Below, piece by piece: positions 1-5,394 of a DNA stretch of 5,394 bases. A program made the position numbers and the translations under genes. The DNA is taken from contig JAJRWM010000071.1 in NCBI GenBank assembly GCA_024276815.1, positions 1-5,394 on the forward strand. Reading direction: 5' to 3'. Position 1 is the first letter of the stretch. Every line of letters starts with the position of its first letter. The notes under the pieces were generated by a model. It saw nothing but the letters and a program-made list of their open reading frames with translations, ran no database searches and had not been told where the DNA came from. Source of the stretch: a bacterium. Lineage in GTDB: Bacteria > JACRDZ01 > JAJRWM01.

Positions 1-963
1 AATCGGAGCGTGTACCCGGCGCTCTACCGTTTCCAACTGCTGTTTGCAGTAATACGCGCTTTTCTTGATGTCGTATATTTTCGGCCCCAGTTCCTTATTG
101 GTGATTTCCAGCTTACCCTTTAGAATATCCGACGGACTCATCCGGTATTCTCTGGTAATCCGCTCCATCTCCTTAACCGCCGAAGACCCCTGTTTGTAGA
201 GCTTTTTCAGCTTTATGGCAATCCGCTCAATTTCTTTGCGGTGCCATTTAATACGGCGAATTTCTTTTTCAATGAGCATACGCTCGCTTTTGATGCCGCG
301 TTCAATGTTTTGCCGGTCATCGCTGGTCTGGGGACCAACTTCCAGCCGCTTCTTTTCCAGCTTTTTGATCTTGTCCCAGGAGAGCACCACCTTGGTGCAC
401 ACCTCTTTAACCCGCTCCATCTCTTCTTTTTCCCGGGCAAAAGGTAAAGATTCTCTCAAGCCGATATTTAAAAGTTCCCGTATTTTCAGGTTGCCGTTAT
501 CGAATTTTTTACCCAGGTTGATTACTTCCTCGATCATAATCGCGGTACCCAGGACCAATTCTTCAATCCTGGTCTCGCCGCGCTCAATCCGCTTGGCCAG
601 GCGTATCTCGCCCTCGCGGGTTAAAAGAGGCACCCGACCCATCTCCCGTAAATACATTTTAACCGGATCATTGGTGCGCACACCCTTGGGCAAAGACAAA
701 TCAAGAACAACTTTCTCTTGCGGAGCTTTGCCGATAACAGCGCCCAAACCATTCTTGGCGGCAGGCTCGTCATATACCTCAATGCCTAATTCATGCAATA
801 TTAATATTAAGTCGTCAATCTGATCGGCGTGAATGACGTCCATCGGCAGGACTTTATTGATTTCGGAATAAGTCAATCCGCCTCGTTCCCGTCCGATGAT
901 AATCATTTCATCCACTTCTTTAAACTTAGTGATATGTTTAATTTCTTTAACTTTAGGCGACAA
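1..963 (-). CDS. rpoD: RNA polymerase primary sigma factor RpoD (sigma-70), N-terminal part, cut by window edge
   Basis: Housekeeping sigma factor, which directs core RNA polymerase to -10/-35 promoters. The frame is open for 321 codons and runs off the window, so regions 2 to 4 (promoter recognition) are not visible. Residues about 10-65 resemble region 1.1 (GLTYSEINKVLP, then a helix ending in LGIEVYDEP). Residues about 97-132 are a clear region 1.2 (TNDPVKMYLREMGRVPLLTREGEIRLAKRIERGE, split here only by reading). From about 133 onward comes a long charged helical stretch, the non-conserved region found between 1.2 and 2.1 in proteobacterial-type sigma-70 and absent from short Firmicutes-type proteins. 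The chosen start is TTG at 961-963, right after the dnaG stop, because the region 1.1 homology begins soon after it. It has a possible AAAGGTG ribosome site. The ATG at 904-906 would cut into region 1.1. The gene is in the same frame as dnaG and probably co-transcribed and translationally coupled with it. No internal stop was found. Confidence 0.94.
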   Translation of the reverse strand, partial: MSPKVKEIKHITKFKEVDEMIIIGRERGGLTYSEINKVLPMDVIHADQIDDLILILHELGIEVYDEPAAKNGLGAVIGKAPQEKVVLDLSLPKGVRTNDPVKMYLREMGRVPLLTREGEIRLAKRIERGETRIEELVLGTAIMIEEVINLGKKFDNGNLKIRELLNIGLRESLPFAREKEEMERVKEVCTKVVLSWDKIKKLEKKRLEVGPQTSDDRQNIERGIKSERMLIEKEIRRIKWHRKEIERIAIKLKKLYKQGSSAVKEMERITREYRMSPSDILKGKLEITNKELGPKIYDIKKSAYYCKQQLETVERRVHAPI

Positions 964-966
964 TTT

Positions 967-2751
967 TTACTGAGCACCTTTCAATAGAGTATTTTCTTTC
1001 TTCAATCTGTCAATTTCCCGTATCAGATAGCCGATTTCATCCTCACTGTTATTTACAGTAAGATCATGGTGAAGTTTTCTGATTTTACGAAGAATCACCC
1101 TTCTTCTCTTTTCCCTGACAAGATCGCTAAACGCTTCCAGTGGGTTCCCCCACAACGCTTCCTTATCATCAACCAACAACAAAGAGGAAGTTTTTTCCCT
1201 TAAAGTTTTCGCTTCAATATGTCCCAGCAATTCTCCCGGTATCTTTAGAATTTCCTCAGGTTGCGCCAAAATAATATCCGCCAGCTCAGCCCACTCGGGG
1301 TCTTCAAAACTGGCGAGAATGTTCGACTCGCTGAAAACCGGCCTTATTTCCCCATGAAACAACAACAATAACTGGACTAAGTCCCTCTCTTCCGGGAAGC
1401 TTTCCGCCCTTTGGGTAACTGCGATATTATCGGCCGCCAAACTACCGGGCTTAACTCTTCCGCCGCCGCTTTTCTTTAACTCAAACCTCAACGCCGCTTC
1501 ATCAAGTTTAAAAGCGTCGCTCAGCCTCCTCAACTATTCTTCCCGGCGCAAGGCGTTTTTCTCTTTGGCGATCAGCGGCAGCAACTCACCCACAGCCTTG
1601 ATACGGCCCTCAGCCCTGGTCAGATCGTATTTGCGTTCGCTGACATGGCAAAAGAAATCGACTTCATCCAGGGCGTTGTCCAGATGACGCTGAAACGCCC
1701 CGGCGCCCTGAGCGCGGATTAACGAATCGGGGTCTTCGCCATCGGCCAGGATTACGACCGAACTCTTCATCCCTCCTTCCATCAATACTTCAACGCCACG
1801 CAAGGCCGCTTTCAAGCCGGCATTGTCAGCGTCAAACACCAGTACCGCATGGTCAGTCAGCCGCTTGAGCAGGTTTAACTGACTGGCGGTCAGAGCCGTT
1901 CCCAGCGGGGCCACGACAGCTTTAAAGCCGGCCATGTAGGCAGTGATTAAATCAAGATAACCTTCAACAATAATAAAATACCCGGTCTCCTTGACGGACT
2001 CTTTCGCCCGGTGAAAATTATATAAAGTACCGCTTTTATGATAAACAGCCGTTTCCGGCGAGTTTAAATATTTGGGCTGCTGCTGTTCGTTGAGCGCCCG
2101 ACCGCCAAAGCCGATAATCCGTCCCTGGTAATCCTGAATCGGGAATATCAGCCGACCGGCGAAGCGGTTGGCAACCCCGTTACGATAAAAATTATAAAGA
2201 CCGGCCTTTTCCACCACGTCTTTATTGATATCAGCCGTAACGATCCGGCGGGCCCCGCCGGGCTCTTTATCGGGAACGAAACCCAGTTGAAATTCGACGG
2301 CGGCCGAGTCGCTGATACCGCGTTCCGACAAATAAGCGCGCGCCGACTCTCCCAAGGCGCCTTTCATTAGGATGTTATGAAAATAATGGGCAAAGCGCTC
2401 GTTCAGGGTGTAAATTTCTTTTCGCCCCAGGAACTTCTTGCCCGCGCTCCCGGTATGGGGAATCACAATGCTGTAGCGGTCAGCGACCAGATGCACCGCC
2501 TCGCTGAAAGAAAGCCCCTTTTTGCGCATCAGGAAGTGATAAACGTTCCCGCCTTCGCCGCAACCAAAGCAATGGAATATCTGCTTTAGCGGACTGACAA
2601 CAAAGCTGGGTGTTTTTTCCTGGTGAAACGGACAGACACCCTTGTAATTGGCCCCGGCTTTTTTTAACGGGATAATAGAGCCGATAATCTCAACGATGTC
2701 GGCCCGGTTCCTGATTTCCTCGACTAGCGTATCCGGAATAAAACTTCCCAT
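967..2751 (-). CDS. dnaG: DNA primase DnaG, full length only if an internal TAG (codon 406) is read through
   Basis: Makes the RNA primers for lagging-strand and origin replication, working with the DnaB helicase at the fork. Read through, it has 594 residues, the usual family size. The N-terminal zinc-binding domain has C40, H43, C61 and C64 (CPFH ... HCFGC). The primase core follows, with FAGRLIFPI at about 197-205 and the TOPRIM motifs EGYLDL (E263, D267) and FDADNAG (D307, D309; often FDGD in relatives), then DGEDPDSLI at 337-345. TAG at 1534-1536 falls after NALRREE, near the end of the catalytic core. The same frame continues with LRRLSDAFKLDEAALRFEL, typical of the family, where a Tyr (EEYL) is common at the stop position. 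The helicase-interacting C-terminal domain, residues 407-594, lies beyond it. If TAG terminates, a 405-residue primase without that domain results. The TTG at 1531-1533 could restart a separate 188-residue protein. The ATG start fits the family N-terminus (FIP...VEEIRNRADIVEII). Termination is at TAA 967-969. Confidence 0.95.
975..981 (-). promoter_or_regulatory. Possible ribosome binding site AAAGGTG for rpoD
   Basis: AAAGGTG lies inside the last codons of dnaG, 11 bases before the TTG chosen as the rpoD start. It supports that start over the ATG at 904-906, which has no comparable site. The match is imperfect and the spacing long, so coupling to dnaG translation probably matters. Confidence 0.4.
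1534..1536 (-). other. In-frame TAG stop inside dnaG (codon 406)
   Basis: Reads LRREE-stop-LRRLSDAF. DnaG homologues run straight through this point, commonly with Tyr there. The 188 codons after it encode the rest of the core and the helicase-binding domain with no further stop and no frameshift. A TTG codon follows immediately, with only a weak GGGAAG upstream, so re-initiation is conceivable but not strongly supported. Confidence 0.9.
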
Positions 2752-2764
2752 TAACCTGTCTGAA

Positions 2765-2771
2765 CTCCTTT
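2765..2771 (-). promoter_or_regulatory. Shine-Dalgarno-like AAAGGAG for dnaG
   Basis: AAAGGAG overlaps the last two bases of the mutS2 TAA stop and lies 13 bases before the dnaG ATG, longer than the usual 5-9. A second weak AGG sits 3 bases before the ATG. The overlap with the mutS2 stop suggests translational coupling, so dnaG expression may depend on ribosomes that reach the end of mutS2. Confidence 0.55.
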
Positions 2772-5139
2772 AAACGTCAAATTCAACAATAGTGACGCCA
2801 ATCCCGCCCTCACCGGCGGCGCCGGAACGGTAACTTTTTACCCGGGGATGCCTGCTTAATATTTCAGCTACGATTTTCCTGAGAATTCCCCCTCCAACGC
2901 CATGAATTATAAACGCCCGGGAAAAATGGCTCAATAAAGCGCGATCAAGATATCTTTCCACTTCCTCTCTCGCCTCATCAGCCCTCAGGCCGACCAGGTT
3001 CAGTTCCAGGCTGACCTCGACCGGCGGAGCCAGGTGAAAGCCAATATTTTTCAAAGTGGTAGTCAGCGGTTTGTCGTTTTTAATGACTTCCAGGCTCGCC
3101 ACCTCGATATTTTTTTCGCCGCACTCAATGCGCAACGTTCCCTTATCGGGATGCCGGCTGATCACCTTGCCGCTCAGATGTAAACTTTCGATATAGACGA
3201 TCTCCCCGATCTGAAAATCACTAACTTTATGATTGTTTTTTACCGCCAGCGGTTGCTAGAGTCTTTTCAGCTCAGCGTTCAGTTCGGCTTCCCTACGCGC
3301 AATGTTTTGCCGGGCGCTCTCAACATCGGCGGCTTTTTCGGCCTTTCTCACCTCGTCAAGCAAGGCCGCGATTTCCTGCCGGGCGGAAGCGACTAACTGC
3401 CTGGTCTCCCTGAGCGCCTGCCGCCGTTTAGCAACCGCGAATTCTTTCAGGCTGCTGTTTTTCTCTTACCACTCCTGGTAAAGCCGGTTGATTTCCCGCT
3501 CTTTGTCCGAAAGCTCCCGTACTTTGACCGCCTGTTCCCGGGTCTCGTTTTCCAGTTTGACCAATAACTGGTCCAGCTTGAATTCAGGCCCGGTCACCAG
3601 CGCTTCGGCTCCGGCGACTATCTCGTCGGGCAGTCCCAGCCTTTTGGCGGTGACAATCGCCCGGCTGCTGCCCAGGAACCCCATCCTGAGCCTGTAAGTC
3701 GGCAACAGGTCCTTTTCGTTAAACTCTACCGACGCGTTCTCCATATCCGGACTATTGGCGGCAACGTTTTTCAGTAAACGAAAATGAGTGGCGACAATGG
3801 TCGTCGCCCTCTTTTTATGTAAAGTGCCGATAATCGAAACCGCTAACGCCGCGCCCTCGGTCGGGTCAGTACCGGCTCCGAGTTCATCGAGTAAATACAA
3901 GGCGTCATTTTGAGCGCCCTTTAACATGTGAACCACGTTGGTCATGTGGGCCGAGAAGGTGCTCAGGCTCTGCTCCAGGCTTTGCTCATCGCCGATATCG
4001 GCGTAAATTTTGTTATAAAACGCGATACTGCTGTTTTCCTTGACCGGAATATACATTCCGCACAGGGCCATCAGCGTCAGGAGACCCACGGTTTTCAAGG
4101 CGACGGTCTTGCCGCCGGTATTCGGCCCGGTAATGACCAGGGTATGATAACCATCGCCAATCCTGATGGACTGGGGAACGACCGCCTCGTTCCCTTTACT
4201 CAGGATCAGTATCGGATGACGGCCTTCGCGAATATCAATCAGTCCCCGCTGATTTAAAACCGGCGCTACGGCCGTTAAAGCTTCAGCCAGGCGCGCCCGG
4301 GCGTAAAAACTGTCAAATTCGGCTAAAACGGAAACCGCTTGTTTCAACTCGCTGACTTCGTGTCTTAAAAGATCGCTGATCCTGATCAAAAGAAAAGAGA
4401 TCTCTTCTTCTTCTTCACCAGCCAGGCTAATTAACTGGTTGTTAAGAGGGAAGACCCTTTCCGGTTCAACAAAAACGGTCGCGCCGCTTTTGGAGGTATC
4501 CTGAACGATTCCTCTAAGCGCGTTCTCCTTGCCCTTTACGGCGGGAATGACATAGCGGCCGTTTCGCTGGGTAATGATTCTTTCAGCGATAACTTCTGTC
4601 AGTCTGCTGGACTGAAGATAGCCGTTTAAAGCATCTTTTATCCTGCTTTGCGTTGAAACAAGCTGCCGTCTTATTCTCGCTAACTTCACGCTGGCCGTGT
4701 CTTTAATCCTGCCCTGAATATCGACCAGGTTTTCGACTTCTTTTACCAGCCGGCTAAAATCAATTACGGTTTCAAACCGCTGTGACCAGAGGGGGTAATC
4801 ATCCCGCCGCGAGCCAAACAGCCGGCGCAGTTTATCGACTACCGGAAAAAAGACTAAAAAAACGGCGACTTCTTTAGCCGTCAGGATACCGTTGGGCTTG
4901 CCAAGTCTTTTTAAGATAGCTCCCATGGGCGGCAGTTCTCTTTGCCAGAGGTCTGACGCCATACTCAAGGCTTTGATCGTTTCCGCCGTTTTAACCAGAC
5001 TTGATTTAGCCTGGCCGTAATCAGTCGCCGGTCTGATTAAATCAATGGATTCCGCCCCTTCAGCGAAGCGGGAATAGGTCTTTAAGTGTTTAACAACCTT
5101 GAAAAAATCTAGGACAGATAACGTATGTTCTTCAATCAC
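2770..5139 (-). CDS. mutS2: Endonuclease MutS2 / MutS-family ATPase, full length only if internal TAA and TAG are read through
   Basis: MutS2 proteins are MutS-like ATPases without the mismatch-recognition domain. They have been linked to suppression of homologous recombination and, in Bacillus, to rescue of collided ribosomes. Read through, the protein has 789 residues, the normal size. The N-terminal lever/clamp helices occupy about 1-300, including GRYVIPAVKGKENALRGIVQDTSKSGAT near 194-221. The ATPase domain has Walker A GPNTGGKT (338-345), STFSAHM (393-399), Walker B LYLLDELGAG (414-423) with D418 and E419, and ATHF (H452). A charged coiled-coil-like linker follows (about 515-627), then a small beta domain (about 638-685) and a C-terminal Smr domain (about 711-789) with LNLVGL and HGVGGG. 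TAA at 3466-3468 (codon 558) and TAG at 3256-3258 (codon 628) both lie in the linker, in frame with all domains. Taken literally, termination at codon 558 removes the Smr domain. The start is GTG (5137-5139), the first start codon after an in-frame upstream stop. Its ribosome site is weak. It is the first gene of the operon. Confidence 0.95.
3256..3258 (-). other. In-frame TAG stop inside mutS2 (codon 628)
   Basis: Reads ELKRL-stop-QPLAVKNN, between the coiled-coil linker and the small beta domain that precedes Smr. The frame is unbroken on both sides and the Smr domain is intact downstream. The stop is followed by CAA. Possible readings are a decoded amber (pyrrolysine or suppressor tRNA), a point mutation from CAG, or a sequence error. 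Confidence 0.9.
3466..3468 (-). other. In-frame TAA stop inside mutS2 (codon 558)
   Basis: Reads YQEW-stop-EKNSS, in the variable coiled-coil linker after the ATPase domain. The next 69 codons (3259-3465) stay in the same frame, are rich in Glu, Lys, Arg, Ala and Leu like the flanking linker, and contain no second lesion. The base after the stop is G. A single C-to-T change from CAA (Gln), or changes from GAA or AAA, would produce it. Pyrrolysine decoding would not explain a TAA. Confidence 0.9.
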
Positions 5140-5235: not shown

Positions 5236-5256
5236 TATTTTTTTTGATTTTTTAGT
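5236..5256 (-). promoter_or_regulatory. A-tract UP-like element upstream of the -35
   Basis: Directly upstream of the -35 the minus strand carries runs of eight A (5238-5245) and six A (5248-5253), roughly in phase with the helix. Such tracts act as UP elements for the RNA polymerase alpha subunit or as bent DNA. This is inference from composition and position. Confidence 0.45.
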
Positions 5257-5289
5257 AACCCGTCAGTGAAGTGGGGGGAGGGGGTTAAG

Positions 5290-5394
5290 GTAATGTCCGG
5301 GAGCAGTCGATAAGCAGGGTATGGGATTTTGTGAGCCATGTTTCGAGAAGCAGCAGCAGATTGACACGTTGTCCGAAGAAAATCTCAGGCTGAA
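5290..5394 (+). mobile_element. Left end of an IS66-like insertion sequence (single-transposase type), cut by window edge
   Basis: A GTAA tetranucleotide, the usual first bases of IS66-family terminal repeats, starts at 5290 (GTAATGTCCGGGAGCAG), 31 bases before a transposase-like start codon. Such a short leader without upstream accessory genes fits the single-ORF (ISBst12-like) branch rather than the three-gene IS66 layout. The boundary is inferred because the right end and the 8-bp target duplicate lie outside the window. If 5290 is the first base, the target copy here would be GGGTTAAG (5282-5289). Confidence 0.55.
5321..5394 (+). CDS. IS66-family-like transposase, N-terminal fragment (window edge)
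   Basis: Twenty-four codons are visible, MGFCEPCFEKQQQIDTLS then EENLRL. The CxxC start followed by a Gln/Glu-rich coiled-coil helix resembles the N-terminus of single-ORF IS66-family transposases (zinc-finger-like CxxC, then a leucine-zipper-like helix). The catalytic DDE domain is outside the window. The start is the ATG at 5321, preceded by a weak AGCAGGG. Transcription is divergent from mutS2. The short length keeps the family call tentative. Confidence 0.6.
   Translation, partial: MGFCEPCFEKQQQIDTLSEENLRL

Follow-up and report, generated by a model that had tools for sequence, protein, structure and literature searches.

The three in-frame stop codons that interrupt mutS2 and dnaG in this contig are, with high probability, substitution errors in the assembled consensus and not features of the organism. 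They exceed what chance would give in a healthy genome, and very probably they are artefacts that arose when short reads of presumably low coverage were assembled. This reading builds on a set of direct observations, namely the genome-wide spread of internal stops, their excess over control loci, the small number of indels, the mixture of residues that they replace and a one-sided spectrum of mismatches between overlapping contigs.

Interrupted genes of the window

The window, that is, the whole stretch of 5,394 nucleotides analysed, is the entire contig C237 of a MAG consisting of 246 contigs and 2.39 Mb (91% complete, 3% contamination). On its minus strand lie mutS2, dnaG and the beginning of an apparent rpoD-type gene for a sigma factor, with the following features:

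2770..5139, minus strand: mutS2, 789 codons plus stop on read-through, GTG start; the sole mutS2 of the MAG
3466..3468, minus strand: in-frame TAA, mutS2 codon 558, in a coiled-coil stretch; native residue not readable from the alignment
3256..3258, minus strand: in-frame TAG, mutS2 codon 628, in a weakly conserved linker; native residue not readable from the alignment
967..2751, minus strand: dnaG, 594 codons plus stop on read-through; the sole dnaG of the MAG
1534..1536, minus strand: in-frame TAG, dnaG codon 406, aligned with Tyr in both same-phylum relatives and in 32 of 71 homologues, with Gln in none
1..963, minus strand: 5' part of a putative rpoD-type sigma factor gene, without internal stop and truncated by the contig end

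The assignment of the last gene to the rpoD type is suggested by the dnaG-rpoD gene order and the look of the protein. The three stops, as reported in the earlier note, are indeed present as letters in the assembly. That note's statement that family sequence continues in frame past each of them, with read-through lengths of 789 and 594 residues, is borne out by NCBIfam: TIGR01069 (mutS2) spans both mutS2 stops (profile positions 2-790 matched) and TIGR01391 (dnaG) spans the dnaG stop (positions 2-413). Coding potential persists downstream of each stop. A profile search of the contigs of the MAG detected no second full mutS2 or dnaG, including the second intact dnaG that the earlier note had envisaged elsewhere in the genome. 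Another MutS-type match, on contig C60, is an 853-residue open frame that covers the mutS2 profile only in part, and a scan of the genome contigs with MutS2 as the sole query gave no result.

The idea that the contig is a contaminant of the bin was rejected, since its GC content and tetranucleotide composition are typical, mid-field among the contigs of the MAG. At its right end, positions 5254-5394 form a repeat (MGFCEPCFEKQQQIDTLSEENLRLK) that contigs L121, L122 and L134 also have at their ends, with 98-99% identity. The repeat resembles the start of a transposase, and the contig therefore probably breaks at an insertion sequence.

Internal stops across the genome

The phenomenon is not confined to the window. 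A survey of coding potential, covering 1.34 of the 2.39 Mb (56%), flagged many in-frame stops, and in NCBIfam one and the same family extends across a TAA in PtsI, trigger factor, YgiQ, ClpX and protoporphyrinogen oxidase, across a TAG in UvrB and PilB, and across a TGA in SHMT. PyrH, with two stops, and L1 also belong to the conserved genes with in-frame stops. A search with E. coli K-12 proteins, many of the matched genes being housekeeping genes, counted 18 internal stops in 65,261 aligned codons (9 TAG, 7 TAA and 2 TGA) and just 2-3 frameshift junctions. The control consisted of 80 dnaG-centred loci from other genomes, searched with the same E. coli queries; its 92,552 codons contained 5 stops, of which 2 are credible and three lie in a spurious E. 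coli frame beside rpsU. The excess in the MAG is significant (Fisher P = 4e-4, or 9e-6 with 2 control stops). A joined search of the phylum with three to four proteins counted stops at joins and gene ends and was excluded as a control.

At the nonsense rate of the MAG, 0.47 stops would be expected in the genes of the window, and the Poisson probability of at least three is 0.012; the window thus stands out as a locally dense part of a pattern that spans the genome. The stops are not clustered by contig (P = 0.24), so that there is no sign of local low depth. A same-phylum genome may carry comparable blemishes: an RF2-like match (G001:C172:1952-2986) contains one TGA and one TAA, which may be accounted for in part by the prfB frameshift site and in part by error.

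Residues opposite the stops

It had been proposed that all three stops could be Gln codons changed by one C-to-T step. At dnaG codon 406 this is contradicted by the homologues: among 71 sequences, Tyr occurs 32 times, followed by Leu (12), Phe (11), Met (5), Trp (4), Ile (4) and Ser (3), while Gln does not occur. The two genomes of the same phylum in which dnaG is matched in full have Tyr and no stop at this position. The tabulation of residues aligned at internal stops in conserved reading frames, which the earlier note had suggested, yielded differing residues. Glu is found at the TAA of PtsI, Gly at the TGA of SHMT, Glu or Asp at the TAG of UvrB and Thr, Ser or Ala at a TAG of PyrH, and E. 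coli YgiQ has Glu.

For the six best-determined sites (Glu, Glu, Glu, Gly, Tyr and Ser/Thr/Ala), a G/T or A/C exchange suffices to turn the native codon into the stop. Under uniform errors such a fit has a chance of 0.5%, for sites picked by the analyst, and of the three PyrH residues just Ser fits. At the remaining stops E. coli has, among others, Lys, Gln and Ala; if these are native, G/T and A/C exchanges do not explain them.

Mismatches between overlapping contigs

Exact overlaps of 141 bases are found at the ends of many contigs of the MAG, as is expected of an assembly with k=141, the MEGAHIT default. Four longer overlaps, apparently single-copy, add up to 1,459 bases with 11 differing sites, all of them G/T or A/C, without a single gap or transition. 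In one of these pairs, encoding a shikimate-kinase-like protein, one contig has an intact GGG motif where the other has GGV. The natural repeats inside contigs have a very different spectrum, in which transitions dominate: 703 transitions, 340 G/T or A/C, 224 C/G and 90 A/T mismatches, with 168 gap columns. At the share of G/T and A/C in these repeats (340 of 1,357 mismatches), 11 out of 11 would arise with a probability of about 2e-7, although four pairs make a small sample of overlaps, and their differences may be the very reason why such pairs exist. We regard this one-sided spectrum as decisive, and it favours substitution errors in the consensus. It also disagrees with the supposed C-to-T origin of the stops, given the lack of any C/T mismatch in the single-copy overlaps. 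For the same reason C-to-T damage of the ancient-DNA type was rejected, even though the counts of stop types alone are compatible with it (P = 0.08). A missense comparison with E. coli gave no excess of the G/T class; natural divergence swamps the signal there.

Probable origin of the substitutions

The MAG has the appearance of a short-read assembly of a population of presumably low coverage, in which base errors, chiefly G/T and A/C, would not have been outvoted and would have entered the contigs. The observed nonsense rate corresponds to a consensus error of about 0.2% per base (0.23%). Where an error of this kind hit a codon for Glu, Gly, Ser, Tyr, Cys or Leu and produced TAA, TAG or TGA, an intact gene would look interrupted, and the three codons of the window would be such cases. 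As to their source, base-calling cross-talk, oxidised guanine in the library, or both, may be responsible.

Two features of Illumina-type errors are found here: substitutions predominate and indels are rare (18 nonsense sites against 2-3 frameshift junctions), and A/C and G/T exchanges are in excess (11 of 11 against 340 of 1,357, in a small sample). On the HiSeq, A-C and G-T exchanges are the commonest substitutions, which has been ascribed to shared laser excitation (PMC3334598), and related remarks on substitution errors exist for the MiSeq (PMC4381044). The pattern in the MAG resembles this four-channel confusion in the exchanges themselves, in the near absence of indels and in the genome-wide spread. 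It differs from it in degree: in the published data these exchanges make up about 56% of raw-read errors, whereas in the small consensus sample from the MAG they account for 11 of 11 mismatches.

Library artefacts from 8-oxoguanine lead from G to T. They are matched by the Glu and Gly codons that become stops through G to T and by the change from GGG to GGV in one of two overlapping contigs. The TAG at dnaG 406, in contrast, would have required a change of T or C to G if it replaced Tyr, and most of the 11 overlap mismatches do not reveal a direction. One paper (PMC8748355) mentions G:C to T:A errors that result from oxidised guanine. The dnaG site suggests that some exchanges went from T or C to G as well.

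Alternative explanations

The changes might be real mutations, caused by a G:C to T:A mutator that has lost 8-oxoguanine repair or accumulated in the oxidised DNA of dead or dormant cells. We consider this improbable. The mismatch class (G/T, A/C), the several Glu or Gly codons whose conversion to stops fits G:C to T:A, and the presence of the same locus as contigs in two forms would all agree with it. However, essential genes are affected jointly (dnaG, pyrH twice, glyA, rplA and clpX), so that a living lineage could not carry all the changes, and the conversion of Tyr, the residue of the relatives at dnaG 406, into TAG is not a G to T change.

Ordinary pseudogene decay in a shrinking genome, to which the interruption of several genes might be attributed, appears very improbable. 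Decay is expected to leave indels along with nonsense changes in dispensable genes. Here, 18 nonsense sites face 2-3 frameshift junctions, and with a yield of about 0.12 stops per codon for each unit of error rate, the stops imply several hundred substitutions with indels nearly absent, in a MAG whose natural repeats do contain gaps. Moreover, housekeeping genes are among those affected. The earlier judgement that simple decay is a poor fit therefore holds for the MAG, with its nonsense changes and hardly any frameshifts.

Of the four readings put forward in the earlier note, substitution errors have gained ground, while stop-codon decoding, programmed read-through and split proteins have lost it: the stops are genome-wide, involve all three codons and replace varied residues, the genes for RF1 and an RF2-like protein are intact, and no suppressor tRNA was found among the tRNA matches that were read. 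Decoding of TAA and/or TAG as Gln or another amino acid, by reassignment or suppression, would account for family sequence in frame past each stop in essential single-copy genes, and yet it is hardly credible. All three stop types stand opposite Glu, Gly, Tyr and Ser/Thr/Ala, and TAG alone, aligned with Tyr in dnaG, Glu/Asp in UvrB and Thr/Ser/Ala in PyrH, would need several meanings; the absence of Gln among the 71 homologues at dnaG 406 adds to this. No codon has been dropped as a terminator, as open reading frames of at least 150 codons end in TAA (409), TGA (283) and TAG (187), counts that include a few of the internal stops. Neither has a release factor been lost or altered: prfA is above the cut-off and there is an RF2-like match, both without internal stops. 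The earlier note had proposed a search for suppressor tRNAs; no CUA, UUA or UCA anticodon occurs in 32 of the 33 tRNA matches, with C167 unread and the MAG 91% complete. In bacteria and phages, reassignment converts one codon into one residue genome-wide, and it has been cautioned that assemblies can give erroneous stop inferences (PMC8629427). The MAG shares with these systems stops that lie in frame within conserved genes. It is unlike them in having three kinds of stops, which are sporadic, replace varied residues and all still terminate genes. Equally hard to believe is a deep-branching bacterium with genome-wide, residue-unspecific read-through of genuine stops in essential genes. Among the tRNA genes, two tandem copies for tRNA-Gln (L277:1501-1575 and 1681-1755) both have the anticodon UUG and are one base apart in sequence.

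That the fragments are translated separately as subunits of split proteins has a negligible probability: the dnaG stop does lie close to where the catalytic domain gives way to the C-terminal helicase-binding part, and the mutS2 stops lie in the linker ahead of the Smr domain, but none of the three is followed by an ATG, GTG or TTG start in the next 15 codons, stops elsewhere cut catalytic domains (SHMT at codon 51 of the tested piece, PyrH twice) and the dnaG of the relatives is unsplit.

Phylogenetic setting and implications

The MAG is the sole genome of its class among the four genomes of its phylum that were compared. The other three show no full MutS2 and give partial MutS-type matches only, and in the scan the DnaG of the MAG was closest to those of Omnitrophota MAGs (41-43%). 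With consensus errors as the favoured origin of the stops, the case is a warning and not a discovery, in that scattered errors can mimic a new code or split essential genes, a risk that applies to a lineage without near relatives. We found no literature on premature stops arising from errors in MAGs. The comparison of contigs that cover the same locus, combined with that of mismatch classes against natural repeats, provides a quick internal test for which no reads are needed.

A repeat of about 122 bases is also scattered through the 1.34 Mb; its roughly 20 copies, with 91-100% identity, include L009:2290-2395, L020:6941-7062 and L028:5388-5509. It looks like a MITE or a REP-type element.
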